Source of the DNA: a virus
Direction: 5' to 3' (one strand)
IMG/VR virus record: IMGVR_UViG_3300047200_000148
Coordinates: 1 to 33,673 of that record
Length of the DNA: 33,673 bases
Program-made: the position numbers and the translations under genes
Shown: piece by piece, positions 26,920 through 33,494 of the stretch
How positions within the stretch are numbered: position 1 is the stretch's first letter
How the letters are laid out: each line of letters begins with the position of its first letter
Notes under the pieces: model-generated
Databases searched by the model: none
What the model was told of the DNA's origin: nothing
What the model saw: only the letters and a program-made list of their open reading frames with translations

Positions 26920-27544
26920 TACGCCTAATCCACTAAACTCTAAATCATTCTTCGATAAACTGAAGTTTAGAGTAACTACGTTCGCTGATATGTCGAAGAC
27001 TGCTCTTCAGAAGTATAAGCAGTATGCAACAAAGCTTCTGAAAAGAAACGTCTCTGGCAATGATGTAATGAATGACTCGTCCCGTCTTATCACGTCAATT
27101 CGTCCTCAGGACATTGGCAAGATGATTATGTATTACTATGATCCAAAGTTGAAGGACAAACTTCCATACTACGATAGATTCCCTCTGGTTATTCCACTTG
27201 AAATATATAAGGATGGCTTTCTAGGTCTGAACCTGCATTACTTGCCTCCAGAATATAGAGCAAGACTGATGGATTCGCTTTATGCTTCTGTTTATCCAAA
27301 GAAGAATACAATTACAGATTCAAAGAAGATTGCGATCACATACAGATTGCTTGCTCAGGTGTCTAGAAACAGACTGTTCGAACCATGCGTAAAGAGATAC
27401 TTGTATACACATCTTCGCTCTAGATTATTCGTCGTGCCACCAGAAGATTGGGATGTCGCTATATTTCTACCAACTCAAAGATTTAATAAGGCAAATGATG
27501 CAACCGTATGGGCTAGCTCATTGCAAAAGACGAGAGGAAGATAA
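26909..27544 (+). CDS. Conserved-type phage structural protein, function not recognised
   Basis: 211 residues, basic. The core PQDIGKMIMYYYDPKLKDKL, then PYYDRFPLVIPLEIYKDGFL, then GLNLHYLPPEYRARLMDSLY is the kind of motif found in proteins of T4-like phages near the head-completion and tail genes. I do not know a firm role. The N-terminal 45 residues are helical and Lys-rich; aromatic-rich strands follow and end with basic residues (LQKTRGR). It overlaps gp4 by 11 nt with AGGA 8 nt before its ATG, and TAATG couples it to the tube-fold gene. DNA-end or neck protein are possibilities, not shown. Confidence 0.7.
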   Translation: MENDTPNPLNSKSFFDKLKFRVTTFADMSKTALQKYKQYATKLLKRNVSGNDVMNDSSRLITSIRPQDIGKMIMYYYDPKLKDKLPYYDRFPLVIPLEIYKDGFLGLNLHYLPPEYRARLMDSLYASVYPKKNTITDSKKIAITYRLLAQVSRNRLFEPCVKRYLYTHLRSRLFVVPPEDWDVAIFLPTQRFNKANDATVWASSLQKTRGR

Positions 27545-28143
27545 TGTCATTCAGCGTTAATGATTTTATGTCGGAACTGAATAGACGTGGCGGTCCTATG
27601 AGGACCAATAGATTCAAAGTTGTATTTCCAGCTCCATTTGCTATGATAGGAACAGATTCGGGACAAGTAGGACGCACAATGGAATATTGGTGCGATTCTA
27701 TCAATTTTCCTGCGTACGGACTTGCAACACATGATGTCAAGAGATGGAGTTACGGTCCAACTGAAAAGAGACCGTTTGCTCCTCTATTCTCACAAATCCA
27801 ATGCACATTCGTCAATGATTCTAATAACTTGACGTGGGATTACTTCAATCGTTGGATTCAAAACATTATTCCACACGAAGCTGATCATGGAATTAATACT
27901 TCTCAAAACGGAGGAGTAGTATATGAACTTGCATACAAACAACAATACGCAACCGATGTTAACTTGATCGTCTATGATACAACTGGATTTCAAACAGTTA
28001 ATATCGTGATCAAAGAAGCTTTCCCTACAATGATTCCAGACATCCCGCTCGCGTGGGGTGACATGAATCGCATTTTCAGATTCTCAGTGATATTTGATTT
28101 TGTCGATTGGTACATTCAACCTAACGTATTACAAGCAGACTGA
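27544..28143 (+). CDS. Tail-tube-fold protein (gp54 or gp19 type)
   Basis: 199 residues. MSELNRRGGPMRTNRFKVVF, then CDSINFPAYGLATHDVKRWS, and FDFVDWYIQPNVLQ near the end follow the layout of T4-like tube proteins, in which an N-terminal strand RxNRFxVxF leads to a beta-barrel subunit that stacks into hexamers. Next to the tape measure and gp26-type chaperone, and with gp48 just across the divergent junction, the baseplate tube initiator gp54 is the better guess; a gp19 major tube protein, usually beside the sheath gene, is the alternative. Start ATG overlaps the previous stop (TAATG). Confidence 0.7.
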   Translation: MSFSVNDFMSELNRRGGPMRTNRFKVVFPAPFAMIGTDSGQVGRTMEYWCDSINFPAYGLATHDVKRWSYGPTEKRPFAPLFSQIQCTFVNDSNNLTWDYFNRWIQNIIPHEADHGINTSQNGGVVYELAYKQQYATDVNLIVYDTTGFQTVNIVIKEAFPTMIPDIPLAWGDMNRIFRFSVIFDFVDWYIQPNVLQAD

Positions 28144-28159
28144 CAGGAGATTATAGATT

Positions 28160-28879
28160 ATGGCACTACCAAAGATTCAACTACCATTTTTTGATGTTGT
28201 TATTCCCTCTACAGCAAAGAAGACGAAGATTCGTCCGATGACTGTTAAGGAAGAAAAGATTCTACTAATTGCTAAGCAAGCGAATACTCGTTCTGACCAA
28301 TTGAATGCGATCGCACAAGTAGTTCATAATTGTTTAGTAGATACTGCACTAAAAACGGAACTAATGCCTCTATTCGATATTGAGTATCTGTTCTTGAAGA
28401 TCAGACAGTTCTCTGTATCCAATATCGCTAAGGTGTCATACAAAGACAACGAAGATGAAAAGGTATATGACTTCTCAATCGATCTTGAAAAGGTAGAAGT
28501 AGATAAGTCTAAGCAAGTACCAGCTACATTCAATCTAACAGATGGCAAAGACGGAATCGTAATTGTTCTGAAGTATCCTTCTCTGACAGACTATAAGACG
28601 TACGATTCAATTGAAGATCCTTCTCAGCTAATTGAGACTATGTTGACTTGCTGCATTGAAAAGGTGTTTGAAGGTTCGTCTGCATTCAAGTTTGCTGATG
28701 CTACTCCAGATGAAAAGAAGGAATTCGTTCAGTCTATTCCATCTAAGTGTTATGCAGACATTCAGAAGTTCTTTGATGGAGAACCTCGCCTTTACTATAA
28801 GATCGAATATAAAAACTCTGCAGGAACGGCTCGAGAAATCGAACTGACTTCGTTAGAGGATTTTTTTACGTTTGCATGA
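28160..28879 (+). CDS. 26: Tail assembly chaperone, gp26-type (T4 baseplate family)
   Basis: 239 residues. KKTKIRPMTVKEEKILLIAK, then AIAQVVHNCLVDTALKTELM, then PLFDIEYLFLKIRQFSVSNI matches the family of T4 gp26 (T4_baseplate), a helical protein needed for hub and tape-measure assembly. It is followed by Lys/Asp-rich strands and EPRLYYKIEYKNSAGTAREI. The gene ends GAT TTT TTT ACG TTT GCA TGA. That contains T_TTT_TTT in the right register for a -1 shift into the next gene (see the slippery-site entry), as in lambda-type G/GT chaperones. Position just before the tape measure supports the chaperone role. Confidence 0.8.
   Translation: MALPKIQLPFFDVVIPSTAKKTKIRPMTVKEEKILLIAKQANTRSDQLNAIAQVVHNCLVDTALKTELMPLFDIEYLFLKIRQFSVSNIAKVSYKDNEDEKVYDFSIDLEKVEVDKSKQVPATFNLTDGKDGIVIVLKYPSLTDYKTYDSIEDPSQLIETMLTCCIEKVFEGSSAFKFADATPDEKKEFVQSIPSKCYADIQKFFDGEPRLYYKIEYKNSAGTAREIELTSLEDFFTFA
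28861..28867 (+). promoter_or_regulatory. T7 slippery heptamer, candidate -1 programmed frameshift
   Basis: Seven Ts lie in register T_TTT_TTT with the gp26-type frame, 10 nt before its stop codon at 28877-28879. A -1 slip continues TAC GTT TGC ATG AGT, which is the frame of the next gene with no stop between. AGAGGA lies immediately 5'. A short GAGT/ACTC hairpin (28877-28891 region) is the only downstream structure I see, so a strong stimulator is not evident. Confidence 0.6.
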
Positions 28880-29085
28880 GTCATAATACTCTACCAAACT
28901 ATTATAAGACGTCATTCTCTCTAACATATGATCATAAGCTAATTTCTATAACAGAATTAGAGAGAATGATTCCTTTCGAACGCGACTTATATGTTGATAT
29001 GCTCAAAGATGATATGGAACAAAAAGAAGAGCGCAGAAGACAGCAACAAGCAATCGACGACGTTCGAAACAGTAGGAGAAAGTAA
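28876..29085 (+). CDS. Small tail chaperone partner (gp51-like position), possible frameshift extension
   Basis: 69 residues from its own ATG, overlapping the previous stop as ATGA. Sequence YKTSFSLTYDHKLISITELE, then MIPFERDLYVDMLKDDMEQK, then a charged helical tail ERRRQQQAIDDVRNSRRK. The IPFERDLYV..L motif is of the kind found in the second chaperone frame (lambda T-like, T4 gp51-like) before tape measures. It reads as -1 relative to the upstream gene and can be fused to it at the T7 site, giving a protein of about 308 residues. Both products may be made. Function inferred from position and motif. Confidence 0.7.
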   Translation: MSHNTLPNYYKTSFSLTYDHKLISITELERMIPFERDLYVDMLKDDMEQKEERRRQQQAIDDVRNSRRK

Positions 29086-29087
29086 CG

Positions 29088-32000
29088 TTGGCTAAAATAC
29101 CAAGCGGTGCAAAATTCGGCAATCTAATTGGACAGGGATTGAAAAATGCTGCAGAGAACCTGCGCGCATCTGGTGTCAACTCTCTGTACAATGGACCGGC
29201 ACCTTCTCGTCCCGACACTTCTGTTACCGATAGGCAGCCAACTACTCCCCAAACTACTGACAATACTCCTGTATCATTCAAAGAAATGGTTACAGTTTCG
29301 GCTGTACAAGCTTTGTCAAGACAAGGTTTGTTGGGATCTTATCTTGCATCTAAGACTCGTACTGGAATCAAGTATCAGCAAGATGCAAAGAAAGACTTCG
29401 AAACTGTCAAAGAAGCTTTCGGAGCTGTTTCCAAAGACTTCTTAAAAACAAATGAAGAATTGAAGAAAGTAAGAACGGACATCTCTGCAACTCGTGATCG
29501 TGTGCAGAAGGTGGTTACTTCTGTCAATTCTGTTTTGAAGGGATATTCTAATCGACTTTCTGCAGTAGAAAGACGTTTGACTTCTCTTGAGTCTCGTCAG
29601 AAGACTGAGATGATGCGTAATCCATATACGCCTCCTCCTTCACTGATTCAGCCTAGAACTACACCACCTCCTCTTCCTGCTATGTCAACGACTGCAGCAG
29701 TAGCATCTGCTGTCGGTTCTGTTGCTTCGGCAGCAGGTAATATAGCTGCAGGGGCAGGTGGGATGGCAGCAATGTCTCGCTTCGGTAATCTATTGAAGAA
29801 GCCTCTTGTTGGTGCTCTCGGTATGACGGCTGGTAAGTTGGGGGCTCGATTGATTCCTGGAGTTGGTGCAGGATTAGCGCTTTATGGTGCATACTCTGGA
29901 TATCAGAAGTATGGACTGAAAGGTGCTGTAACTGGTGCTATTGGAATTGACGATCTAGTTCATGGAGGAGCACAAGCTTCTCCACAACGTCCTGCACACA
30001 TTAATCCTGGATTGAACTACAGATCTCCTCAGATATCTCCTGAAATTATATACGAAAGAATGCAGTTAGAACAACAGAAGTCTAGATTCCTGCAGTATGG
30101 TCAATTACCTCAAGGATTTGAATTTGCACCTGGATATAATGGAACACTAGGAAATCCTTCTAATGTTCGTGCTGGTGGAGCAATGCCTCTGTCAGGAACA
30201 GGAAGCTTTGGTGCTACTGGATTTAGTTCTGGTGGCAGATCTTCTATGCCACCTCCTTCTTATCTAGGAGGACCAAGATCATCAGCAGGTGGCGTTTCTT
30301 CGGCTGGATCGGCAAGAACGTCATATGCTCCATCTTCTTATACCCCTCCAGCAGCTTCGGCTGGGCCGCCTGCTGCTGCTTCATCTTCCCGTGGATGGAA
30401 TTCTAATGTAGGAAAATCTACTGTAGATATGCTGTCTTCTGGTTCAATTGATCGTTCTAGTTTTGACGATCAATTGAAAGATCCAAAAGTACGAAATGCA
30501 CTTGTTGCCCGAGTAAACATTGAAGTTGGTTCACAAGGCGCTCGCTCACAGCAAATGATGATCGAGTCTATTCTGAATAGAGCATCATCTCGTAAATTGT
30601 CAATTATGCAAGCTGTCAATAATCATGACGGCTATTATCCACAGAAAGACAATGACAAGTGGAAACAGCAAGCGCAAACGGCGCAGAGAAATGATCTGCA
30701 TGGATTGGTAGATGTTGTTCACAAGCAAGGTTCTGATATTTCAAAAGGAGCAACAGGAAACGCTTCGGGATCTGTAGGAGTAGGAAGACCAACTGCAGAA
30801 GCAGGAGGAGAACGCTACGGCAGAGAGCGCAGCGATGCGAAATGGAATCCTACATACAGAAATAGTGATACTGCAAGTCTTCCAGATCTTAAACTTGTTC
30901 CAAAAGAACTTTTAAATTCTGATGTGGCGAGCAGCAGACTACAAGGTATTTCAGGATCAGCTTCAAATGCAAAGGTCGCAGCAACTGGTCCCGGAGCTGG
31001 ACCTCCAGAGATTCACGATGCATCAAAGGAAGCTGGATTTGGCTTCTCTAAGGGTCGTTTGAATAAGGTGGAAGGTCTTGTTGTTCATCATACAGCAGGT
31101 GGTGGAAGCGAGAATTATAAAGGAACGATCAACACCTTTAAACAAAGAGGATATCCAGCTCACTATGTTATGGAGAGAGACGGACGCATTGTTCGTACGC
31201 TAGAACCTGGTGCTATGGGATGGCATACACAGAAGGGTGGATCTGGAACTGCTGGAGAAAGGGGTCTGGGATACTCCAATCGTAATACAGAAGGCATCGA
31301 AGTAATCGCGAAAGACAATAAGGATTGGACTCCTGCTCAGGTCGAAGCGATGAAGAGATTCCAAGTTTATCATGCTGATCAACACGGATACGATCCGCTA
31401 AGATCTACATTTGGACATGGCGAACTTAACAAAGGCAAGCAGGCTGACGAAGGAATGGCGTTTGTTTCGCAACTTCGTGAACCTGGTGCATATGATAAGT
31501 GGAAGTCGCAATATTCTGGAAGCAATGTTGATCTTCCTAAGATGGAACAACCCGGCGTTCTTCCAATGCCTCCACAACCTCCTTCTGCAAAACAAGTTGA
31601 GCAGAACGGAAAGGCAAGCTTTGGCAACGTCGTTGAAAGTCAAAACCAAGCAGGTGTGCGAAAGCTCCCTCTAAAGGACGAGTTAAAGGCATATCTAGAT
31701 TACGCAGCAAAGAAGTCTGGTGTTCAATATGAAGTTACTTCTGGTGGACAATCGCGCCGAACAGGAAGACCAGATAGAGCATCAAACCGTCATTCAGTTG
31801 ATACTCCTGGAATATATGGAGCTGCTGATGGTAAGATGTTTGTTATGGAGAATGGACAAAAGAGATATTTGTCTGTTAACAACAAAGAAGACCTTCCATT
31901 AATCCAAAACTTTACTAAGCATTTTGCATCTGTAGCTCCTTCTGCAGGTGTCGGTATGAATTATATGAGTAGAGGAACTGCTTCACAAGGTCAGCTGTTC

Positions 32001-33494
32001 CACTTTGGAGGACCGAATAAAGCAGGTGACCCTGCAGTTATGTACGAGGGTCGAGATCGAGCAGGTACTGCGTTCGACCACGGGCGCAAGATGTTTGGAT
32101 CTGATGAAACTAAGGCAGAATTCAACAAGTATCTTGCATCGCTAGAACCAAACAAAGCTGAATTCAAAGGATCGGCTGGATCTCAGCAAGATGGCAAGCC
32201 AGTTCAAGGTGGTGTAGCAACATCTCTTGAAAAGCCATATTCGCCAGCAGAAGTTGAAGGACTTGCAGCAAAGGGCAAGAAGTATGCTGAATATGATCCT
32301 TCACAGGCAGGTGCAGATGCTACTCGCATCGCACTTGAAAAGAAGGGAATCTCTGCAGTAGCATACAACAGAGGTATGGGAAATCCTGAGTGGGGAGAAT
32401 CACAGAAGTCTGCCAAGCAAGTTGTTTCTGAGATTGGACAATTGAAAGAAAAATATGTCCATCTAGATAACGCTGAGATGTTTAAAGGTGGCTCTGGAAT
32501 GAAGTATGAAGACTTCAAGTACATTGTCGACGAATCTCAGAAGATGGGTAAGACTGTTATTCCAAAGAACCCACACTTGAATGACTATCTAGAACGCTAT
32601 ATGAAAGAGCGTCCAGACTTTAAGCCTCCTTATGTTAACGTAGAAGACGTTGGAAAGCTTTCTAAACAGCAGTTCGATTCTCTTGCTAAGTTGAAGCAGC
32701 AGGGAGTCGATATCAATGGTCTTGATTGGAAGGGCAATGTAGGTTCAAAGACTGCGAAGGATAACCTAGACAGATTCTCCAAAGAACTAGGATCTGTCAC
32801 TGTTATGCAGGGTGGTGGAAGCCAGCCTCGATATGATGATAGAGGTGCAGAAACAATTGCAGGACCTGGCGCAACACAAGTTCAGCCAGCAGTTGCTTCT
32901 ATGCCAGCTGCTCCAACAACTTCTGACGTTGTTGGCAATATGCAGCAAGAACCTCCATCTCGTCTAGGTCAATTCTCACAGACTGTTCAGACGTTTGAGA
33001 ATCAAGCAAAGGCTGCGGATGCTTCTGTTGGACCTGCTGTTGCAGGAGTAGATAGATTAGGAACAATGGCTGCGACTGCTTCTAAAGTAGAACCAGCGCA
33101 ACAAGCTCCAGCATCATTTGTAGTTGCTGATCAAGATAATGCTAAGAAGATGTTTGATGGCGAAGCAATTCAGCCACCAGTTGCGGGTGCTCCAGCTCCT
33201 GCGATTGAACAACAAGCTGCATCTCCTTCATTGTCACCAGATCGTCCTGCTATTGCTGGTGGAGGAGCAAGTGAGCAGCAAGTAGAAACAAAGGCAGCAG
33301 AAGCTGGTGCACAAGCAGGTAAAGAATCTGCACAAAGCTCAGCAGACGTTCCTTCTTCATCTGGTGGTGGTCAATCTTCACAAGAATCTTCGGAAGAAGG
33401 TGGATCTGCTCCAAACTTCGGCAATCATCCTGAATCACAGGCACCTGAACAAGGATCTGGTGGTTATGGATCACACGGACGTTGTTACGTATAA
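29088..33494 (+). CDS. Tape-measure-position protein with peptidoglycan hydrolase domains
   Basis: 1468 residues; TTG start with AGGAG 9 nt upstream. Order: coiled coil (about 95-175); Ala/Gly-rich hydrophobic region 196-292, likely membrane-active, as in tape measures; Ser/Pro linker; a possible SleB-like segment about 465-545 (NIEVGSQGARSQQMMIESIL); an Amidase_2 domain about 650-805 (VVHHTAGGG, NTEGIEV, GHGELNKGKQADEG) with likely zinc ligands H667, H777 and D787 and catalytic E738; an M15-like peptidase about 860-1005 (RHSVDTPGIYGAAD, H902, D914, H972 in LFHFGG); an unassigned domain about 1050-1245; and a Ser/Gln/Gly tail. It directly follows the chaperone pair. It may measure tail length and cut cell wall during infection. 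Confidence 0.8.
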   Translation: MAKIPSGAKFGNLIGQGLKNAAENLRASGVNSLYNGPAPSRPDTSVTDRQPTTPQTTDNTPVSFKEMVTVSAVQALSRQGLLGSYLASKTRTGIKYQQDAKKDFETVKEAFGAVSKDFLKTNEELKKVRTDISATRDRVQKVVTSVNSVLKGYSNRLSAVERRLTSLESRQKTEMMRNPYTPPPSLIQPRTTPPPLPAMSTTAAVASAVGSVASAAGNIAAGAGGMAAMSRFGNLLKKPLVGALGMTAGKLGARLIPGVGAGLALYGAYSGYQKYGLKGAVTGAIGIDDLVHGGAQASPQRPAHINPGLNYRSPQISPEIIYERMQLEQQKSRFLQYGQLPQGFEFAPGYNGTLGNPSNVRAGGAMPLSGTGSFGATGFSSGGRSSMPPPSYLGGPRSSAGGVSSAGSARTSYAPSSYTPPAASAGPPAAASSSRGWNSNVGKSTVDMLSSGSIDRSSFDDQLKDPKVRNALVARVNIEVGSQGARSQQMMIESILNRASSRKLSIMQAVNNHDGYYPQKDNDKWKQQAQTAQRNDLHGLVDVVHKQGSDISKGATGNASGSVGVGRPTAEAGGERYGRERSDAKWNPTYRNSDTASLPDLKLVPKELLNSDVASSRLQGISGSASNAKVAATGPGAGPPEIHDASKEAGFGFSKGRLNKVEGLVVHHTAGGGSENYKGTINTFKQRGYPAHYVMERDGRIVRTLEPGAMGWHTQKGGSGTAGERGLGYSNRNTEGIEVIAKDNKDWTPAQVEAMKRFQVYHADQHGYDPLRSTFGHGELNKGKQADEGMAFVSQLREPGAYDKWKSQYSGSNVDLPKMEQPGVLPMPPQPPSAKQVEQNGKASFGNVVESQNQAGVRKLPLKDELKAYLDYAAKKSGVQYEVTSGGQSRRTGRPDRASNRHSVDTPGIYGAADGKMFVMENGQKRYLSVNNKEDLPLIQNFTKHFASVAPSAGVGMNYMSRGTASQGQLFHFGGPNKAGDPAVMYEGRDRAGTAFDHGRKMFGSDETKAEFNKYLASLEPNKAEFKGSAGSQQDGKPVQGGVATSLEKPYSPAEVEGLAAKGKKYAEYDPSQAGADATRIALEKKGISAVAYNRGMGNPEWGESQKSAKQVVSEIGQLKEKYVHLDNAEMFKGGSGMKYEDFKYIVDESQKMGKTVIPKNPHLNDYLERYMKERPDFKPPYVNVEDVGKLSKQQFDSLAKLKQQGVDINGLDWKGNVGSKTAKDNLDRFSKELGSVTVMQGGGSQPRYDDRGAETIAGPGATQVQPAVASMPAAPTTSDVVGNMQQEPPSRLGQFSQTVQTFENQAKAADASVGPAVAGVDRLGTMAATASKVEPAQQAPASFVVADQDNAKKMFDGEAIQPPVAGAPAPAIEQQAASPSLSPDRPAIAGGGASEQQVETKAAEAGAQAGKESAQSSADVPSSSGGGQSSQESSEEGGSAPNFGNHPESQAPEQGSGGYGSHGRCYV

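Follow-up and report, generated by a model that had tools for sequence, protein, structure and literature searches.

In the window, by which we mean the whole stretch of DNA analysed here, a 33,673-base metagenomic virus fragment from IMG/VR, a gp26-type tail chaperone gene very probably directs the synthesis of two proteins, a short chaperone (G) and a long fusion chaperone (G-T), through a programmed −1 ribosomal frameshift. We infer the occurrence of the slip, its rate and the role of the products in tail assembly, the last of these from homology and gene position. Under the proposed mechanism, most ribosomes would reach the stop codon of the gp26-type gene and release a 239-aa short chaperone (G), and a minority would slip back by one base on the heptamer T_TTT_TTT, where both Phe-tRNAs are able to re-pair. 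The slipped ribosomes would then read 72 further codons to give a 308-aa G-T fusion. On the model of lambda G/GT, G would serve as a coat for the tape-measure protein, and the T part of G-T would recruit tail tube subunits.

The core of this finding was already proposed by Vladimirov, Gautam and Davidson in 2022 (Virology 566:9-15), as far as that work is represented in two later papers, which describe it as identifying the tail assembly chaperones of T4-like phages. The PRFect paper (PMC10885494) refers to it for the pairing of a short gene with a fused long one, and PMC12846349 names it as the source for poly-T slippery sequences in T4-like TAC-N genes. The additions made here are how widely the signal is kept, the loss of start codons, a covarying RNA stem, an alignment of T4 gp51 with the predicted fusion, and a weak structural match to an HK97 protein. 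The cited work on T4-like chaperones may leave the RNA element undescribed.

The junction and its conservation in relatives

The gp26-type zero-frame gene (28160..28879, plus strand) encodes the 239-aa short form (G, or TAC-N), which matches PF12322 (E 1.9e-47) and phrog_150 (E 3.8e-51) and which is matched to T4 gp26 by profile comparison (hhalign E 3.6e-12). The gene ends in GAT TTT TTT ACG TTT GCA TGA. The slippery heptamer T_TTT_TTT thus lies in zero-frame register at 28861..28867 (+), and three sense codons, ACG TTT GCA, separate it from the zero-frame stop TGA at 28877..28879 (+), which overlaps an ATG at 28876 as ATGA. Runs of seven Ts are scarce in the window, with 3 on both strands vs. 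10.6 expected in shuffles. The −1 frame runs without a stop codon from 64 nt before the gp26 stop to 206 nt beyond it. After a slip, it would supply an extension of 72 aa plus a stop codon (28867..29085, +), i.e., the T part, named gp51 in the annotation of relatives, which is recognised by its match to phrog_634 ("baseplate hub assembly catalyst", E 1.3e-19), by a sequence motif and by its first Tyr. The predicted fusion of 308 aa consists of 236 gp26-type residues and the 72-residue extension, joined as ...LEDFF-YVCMSHN.... Read from its own ATG, the same −1 frame gives a gp51-like ORF of 69 aa at 28876-29085 (+; stop codon 29083-29085).

A first-pass annotation of this DNA had pointed to the heptamer three codons before the gp26-type stop, to a following gene in the −1 frame that is open from the heptamer through its ATG, and to a candidate programmed −1 frameshift there, and the sequence bears out the first two of these. 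The register alone is weak evidence, because an ATGA overlap automatically forces the next gene into the −1 frame, and it was dropped as an argument. The decisive evidence, itself drawn from sequence comparison, is conservation in relatives.

Two sets of relatives were collected. The first, of 80 loci, came from querying IMG/VR with the gp26-type protein; 78 of these have a readable junction. The second set of 80 loci was found with an alignment probed solely by an N-terminal motif, and was thus blind to the junction; 72 of its loci are less than 80% identical to one another and to the representatives of the first set. T_TTT_TTT or T_TTT_TTC stands in register, 0-24 nt before the stop, in 78/78 loci of the first set, and T_TTT_TT(T/C/A) stands in register ahead of the same extension in 80/80 loci of the second. 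In neither set is there a scorable locus without the heptamer or with the second frame in another register, the outcome that would have spoken against the first-pass annotation, and the in-register heptamer and the −1 extension are found together in all 158 scorable relatives. The extension is 53-73 codons long in the first set, except in L033 and L060, where it ends early, and carries the motif L(S/N)HNxLxxYYxxxFxLxQHHKYSxxEIENxIPFERDxYV. Across the 20 members of this clade that were aligned with the window's, the Tyr directly after the slip is invariant.

Cultured phages show the same arrangement in 11 of the 14 examined, namely S-PM2, S-SM2, P-SSM2, Cr30, phiM12, DLP6, Vibrio R10Z, Aeromonas CC2, Menderavirus Bhz51, Rhizobium IC12 and phiM9, the last with the variant T_TTT_TTG. 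The remaining three, Ackermannviridae CBA120, D3 (Dickeya) and Pseudomonas phage Cygsa01, keep the −1 extension but have no heptamer, suggesting that some relatives use another route. In these three (L089 3250-3460, L096 3250-3450 and L094 3200-3415), ATTTTC...TAA(TG) replaces the slippery heptamer, and CBA120 has ATT at the position where D3 and Cygsa01 have ATG, with no annotated gene there.

The chaperone locus is flanked upstream by a tail tube-like gene (27544..28143, +; PF23849 E 3e-10, phrog_45 E 1.5e-29) and downstream by a putative tape-measure gene (29088..33494, +), which starts with TTG and encodes a 1468-aa protein. The position and the composition of this protein (long, coiled-coil/amidase) suggest the tape-measure role; a BLASTP comparison with the Cr30 tape measure gave no match. 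Its N-acetylmuramoyl-L-alanine amidase domain (PF01510, E 9.5e-17) lies mid-protein, at residues 659-785.

RNA structure downstream of the heptamer

The first-pass annotation did not mention any downstream RNA structure, and the following is an addition to it. Folding was scored in sliding windows against dinucleotide shuffles. Over 48 loci, the mean folding z-score has a single peak, of −1.83 ± 0.27, in the 0-70 nt that follow the heptamer; values elsewhere lie between −0.7 and +0.3. The same interval gave −2.64 ± 0.19 in 72 new loci. In the window's clade, the structure takes the form of a stem of about 9 bp that begins 7 nt downstream of the heptamer and pairs positions +7 to +15 with +54 to +62, corresponding in the window to 28875..28883 (5′ arm) and 28922..28930 (3′ arm), both on the plus strand. 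This stem encloses the stop codon and a loop of about 38 nt, which often holds a second, inner stem. Such a stem, which contains the stop codon and lies about 7 nt past the heptamer, would most likely pause the ribosome and raise the rate of slipping.

Pair counting and covariation both support the stem. In 23 sequences, 85% of the cells are paired, vs. 37-40% when the arms are slid, and the outer and inner stems together contain 25 double-change cells vs. 9.8 in shuffles, with none of 500 shuffles as high. For 20 loci not used for discovery, the outer stem is 94% paired vs. 19-51% when slid, and the inner stem is less clear (66%). RNAalifold found no consensus structure in the 23-sequence alignment, despite the stem seen in pair counting and per-sequence folding, because several members break the stem. 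An Rfam search at the junction returned no family.

The window itself is a divergent member of its clade, in which the consensus stem is weak: judged by eye, seven of the nine outer pairs form, two of them via changes on both sides. Its preferred local hairpin in RNA folding is a different one (28870..28899, +), which pairs 28870-28874 with 28895-28899 and 28878-28881 with 28888-28891 and is weaker than the clade stem, and the structure of the window over 0-70 nt is weak as a whole (z −1.4). The group with T_TTT_TTC is also less structured: some of its phages (S-PM2, P-SSM2) have a hairpin at comparable spacing, and others have little structure. A long-range pairing in the window between AGAGGA, before the heptamer, and 28916-28923 was considered and dropped (z −0.8). 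Within the gp51-like frame, there is a 13-bp perfect inverted repeat, TCATTCTCTCTAA / TTAGAGAGAATGA, at 28912-28924 and 28957-28969; it lies about 45 nt after the heptamer and dominates the folding of the 100-110 nt downstream.

Codon choice, start codons and alternative readings

Codon and start-codon usage was examined in 48 representative loci, less than 80% identical. Ahead of the two Phe codons stands a codon for Asp, Asn, Ser (AGT or TCT) or Gly, whose third base is T in every locus. The first Phe codon is likewise TTT in all 48, even where TTT makes up 7-17% of Phe codons. The joint chance of this pattern, calculated from the codon use of each locus, is about 10^-24.6, a value that overstates the significance because the phages share ancestry. 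Upstream of the heptamer, no consistent Shine-Dalgarno-like stimulator was found (mean rank 0.46 vs. synonymous codon choice); a Shine-Dalgarno-like GGAGGG is strong in a few cyanophage-type loci.

Thirty-three of the 48 representatives have no ATG among the first seven extension codons, and in two, L028 and L039, the extension is without any ATG, GTG or TTG. In relatives whose extension lacks a start codon, it can be reached solely by frameshifting. The first-pass annotation had the slip joining two genes. The slip signal is kept throughout the IMG/VR relatives, but the ATG of the window is missing in most of them, and the sequences favour a view of the locus as a single gene whose C-terminal domain is encoded through a frameshift.

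The phage of the window might make both products, i.e., the fusion by slipping and a little free gp51-like protein from the ATG at 28876. An ATG at extension codon 4 occurs in 8 of the 48 representatives, as would suit such internal initiation. However, most loci encode Leu (CTN) here, which leaves the free form unconserved, and no strong ribosome-binding site lies at a suitable distance; we consider this possibility unlikely.

An alternative without any frameshift is that the 69-aa gp51-like protein is a separate gene, translated from the ATG at 28876 by stop-start coupling, and that the run of seven Ts is a coincidence of encoding Asp-Phe-Phe. The window does have the ATGA overlap that such coupling would use, and the public records lean the same way: a joined CDS across both frames is absent from those of the 14 cultured relatives examined, and 11 of them annotate a separate ORF after gp26, those of CBA120, CC2 and IC12 being incomplete or different. 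(The record of Aeromonas CC2 leaves the extension, at L091 3205-3373, without annotation, in the space separating gp26 from the following gene.) Five observations make this alternative very improbable. Most relatives have no ATG, and two have no start codon at all, in the extension; the T in third position persists although the amino acid varies; the RNA structure peaks directly after the heptamer; T4 gp51 is a covalent fusion; and the purine-rich AGAGGA of the window lies 15 nt from the ATG, too distant for good initiation. If the locus is read as one frameshifted gene, the public records of the examined cultured T4-like phages misread it, giving a separate gene or nothing in place of an encoded fused domain.

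A homopolymer of seven Ts can provoke some slippage by RNA polymerase, and the window has one, on which the addition or loss of a U would produce mRNAs in both frames. However, the run is only six Ts long in many relatives, with C, G or A next, and the exact T_TTT_TTN codon register and the RNA structure about 7 nt downstream fit a ribosome, whereas a polymerase needs neither; transcriptional slippage is hardly credible here. An assembly error, with a base missing from or added to what is truly a single ORF, might be suspected in a metagenomic IMG/VR record, but is refuted by the same arrangement in 158 other contigs and in independently sequenced cultured phages.

The programmed ribosomal frameshift is retained as the best explanation of the locus, which offers a clean, widely conserved slip signal with an RNA stem, suited to reporter testing.

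T4 genes 26 and 51 and other tail chaperones

The G-T frameshift was described in 2016 as widespread "except T4" (PMC5009743). The T4 genome carries 26 and 51 as two separate, divergent genes, one on each strand. The product of gene 26 consists of PF12322 alone and ends in ...GLKEFFELL; the matching FF is encoded as GAG TTC TTT, with no slippery heptamer. (A further, weak match of T4 gp26 is to phrog_1140, which represents the distal subunit of the baseplate hub, E 9e-4.) The product of gene 51 consists of PF12322 (residues 1-201, E 3.9e-52) followed in frame by a phrog_634 segment (E 1.2e-23); in our T4 record (L081 2803-4229), it appears as a paralogue of gp26 that carries an additional domain at its C terminus. 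In a joint alignment, T4 gp51 runs straight across the predicted slip-join point of both frames. For the extension alone, direct profile comparison gave a weak result (hhalign probability 7.6, E 0.0046).

The sequences thus indicate that T4 encodes as two genes what window-type phages encode as one. The first-pass annotation had linked gp26 and gp51 to the G/GT design. The architecture of T4 gp51, a gp26-type domain plus the extension, upholds this link, but the link is not new, having been proposed in 2022 according to the papers that cite that work. T4 gp51 has been reported as essential and absent from the particle, and was long listed as an essential hub protein with no assigned function (PMC3004832). 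The present comparison would partly explain gene 51, as encoding a gp26 relative with an extra domain, i.e., a fixed version of the frameshift product.

In a phylogenetic tree, which is unrooted and has several long branches, T4-type gp26 and gp51 form one group, separate from the frameshift type (95/92). The frameshift form is present in Vibrio R10Z (Schizotequatrovirus) and Aeromonas CC2, both placed in the family to which T4 belongs. The simplest reading of these sequences is that one lineage duplicated the gene, fixing both products as two genes. We only infer the direction of change, from slip to duplication, because the tree is unrooted. A fuller account, in which the slip of T4-like tail chaperones is driven by the conserved RNA stem and T4 later swapped the slip for duplication into 26 and 51, is put forward tentatively, as plausible yet somewhat short of probable. 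The same account holds the stem to be conserved so strongly that its paired changes reach sites where they alter residues of the extension (Asn/Ser with Val/Ala).

A relation to other tail chaperones is also suggested by structure. An AlphaFold2 model of the short form of the window (pLDDT 89.6) has as its best-probability PDB match the HK97 tail assembly chaperone 2ob9 (Foldseek probability 0.96, E 0.32; TM 0.53 by target; 13% identity). A profile search of PDB sequences gave nothing relevant. The resemblance of the modelled short form to the HK97 chaperone fold is suggestive only.

We note how this locus compares with four known systems. First, T4 gp26/gp51 and the window have the PF12322 and phrog_634 domains in common, in a short and a long form, but T4 has the short gp26 and the fused gp51 as two genes, whereas the window and its relatives have one gene with a predicted slip. 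Second, the HK97 chaperone 2ob9 is the sole plausible solved-structure match of the modelled short form, at the E-value and low identity given above. Third, lambda gpG/gpGT comprises two proteins, one short and one long, made from a single gene by a −1 slip near the gene end, as is predicted for the window, and lies between the tail tube and tape-measure genes, where the window has a tail tube-like and a putative tape-measure gene; the likeness noted here is one of arrangement. Unlike lambda, the window has a T_TTT_TTN heptamer, and its clade has a covarying downstream RNA stem. Fourth, the myophage P2 makes E and E+E′ by a −1 frameshift, its T-rich slippery site preceding the tape measure; the window resembles it in having a T-rich slippery site ahead of a putative tape measure, again a likeness of arrangement.
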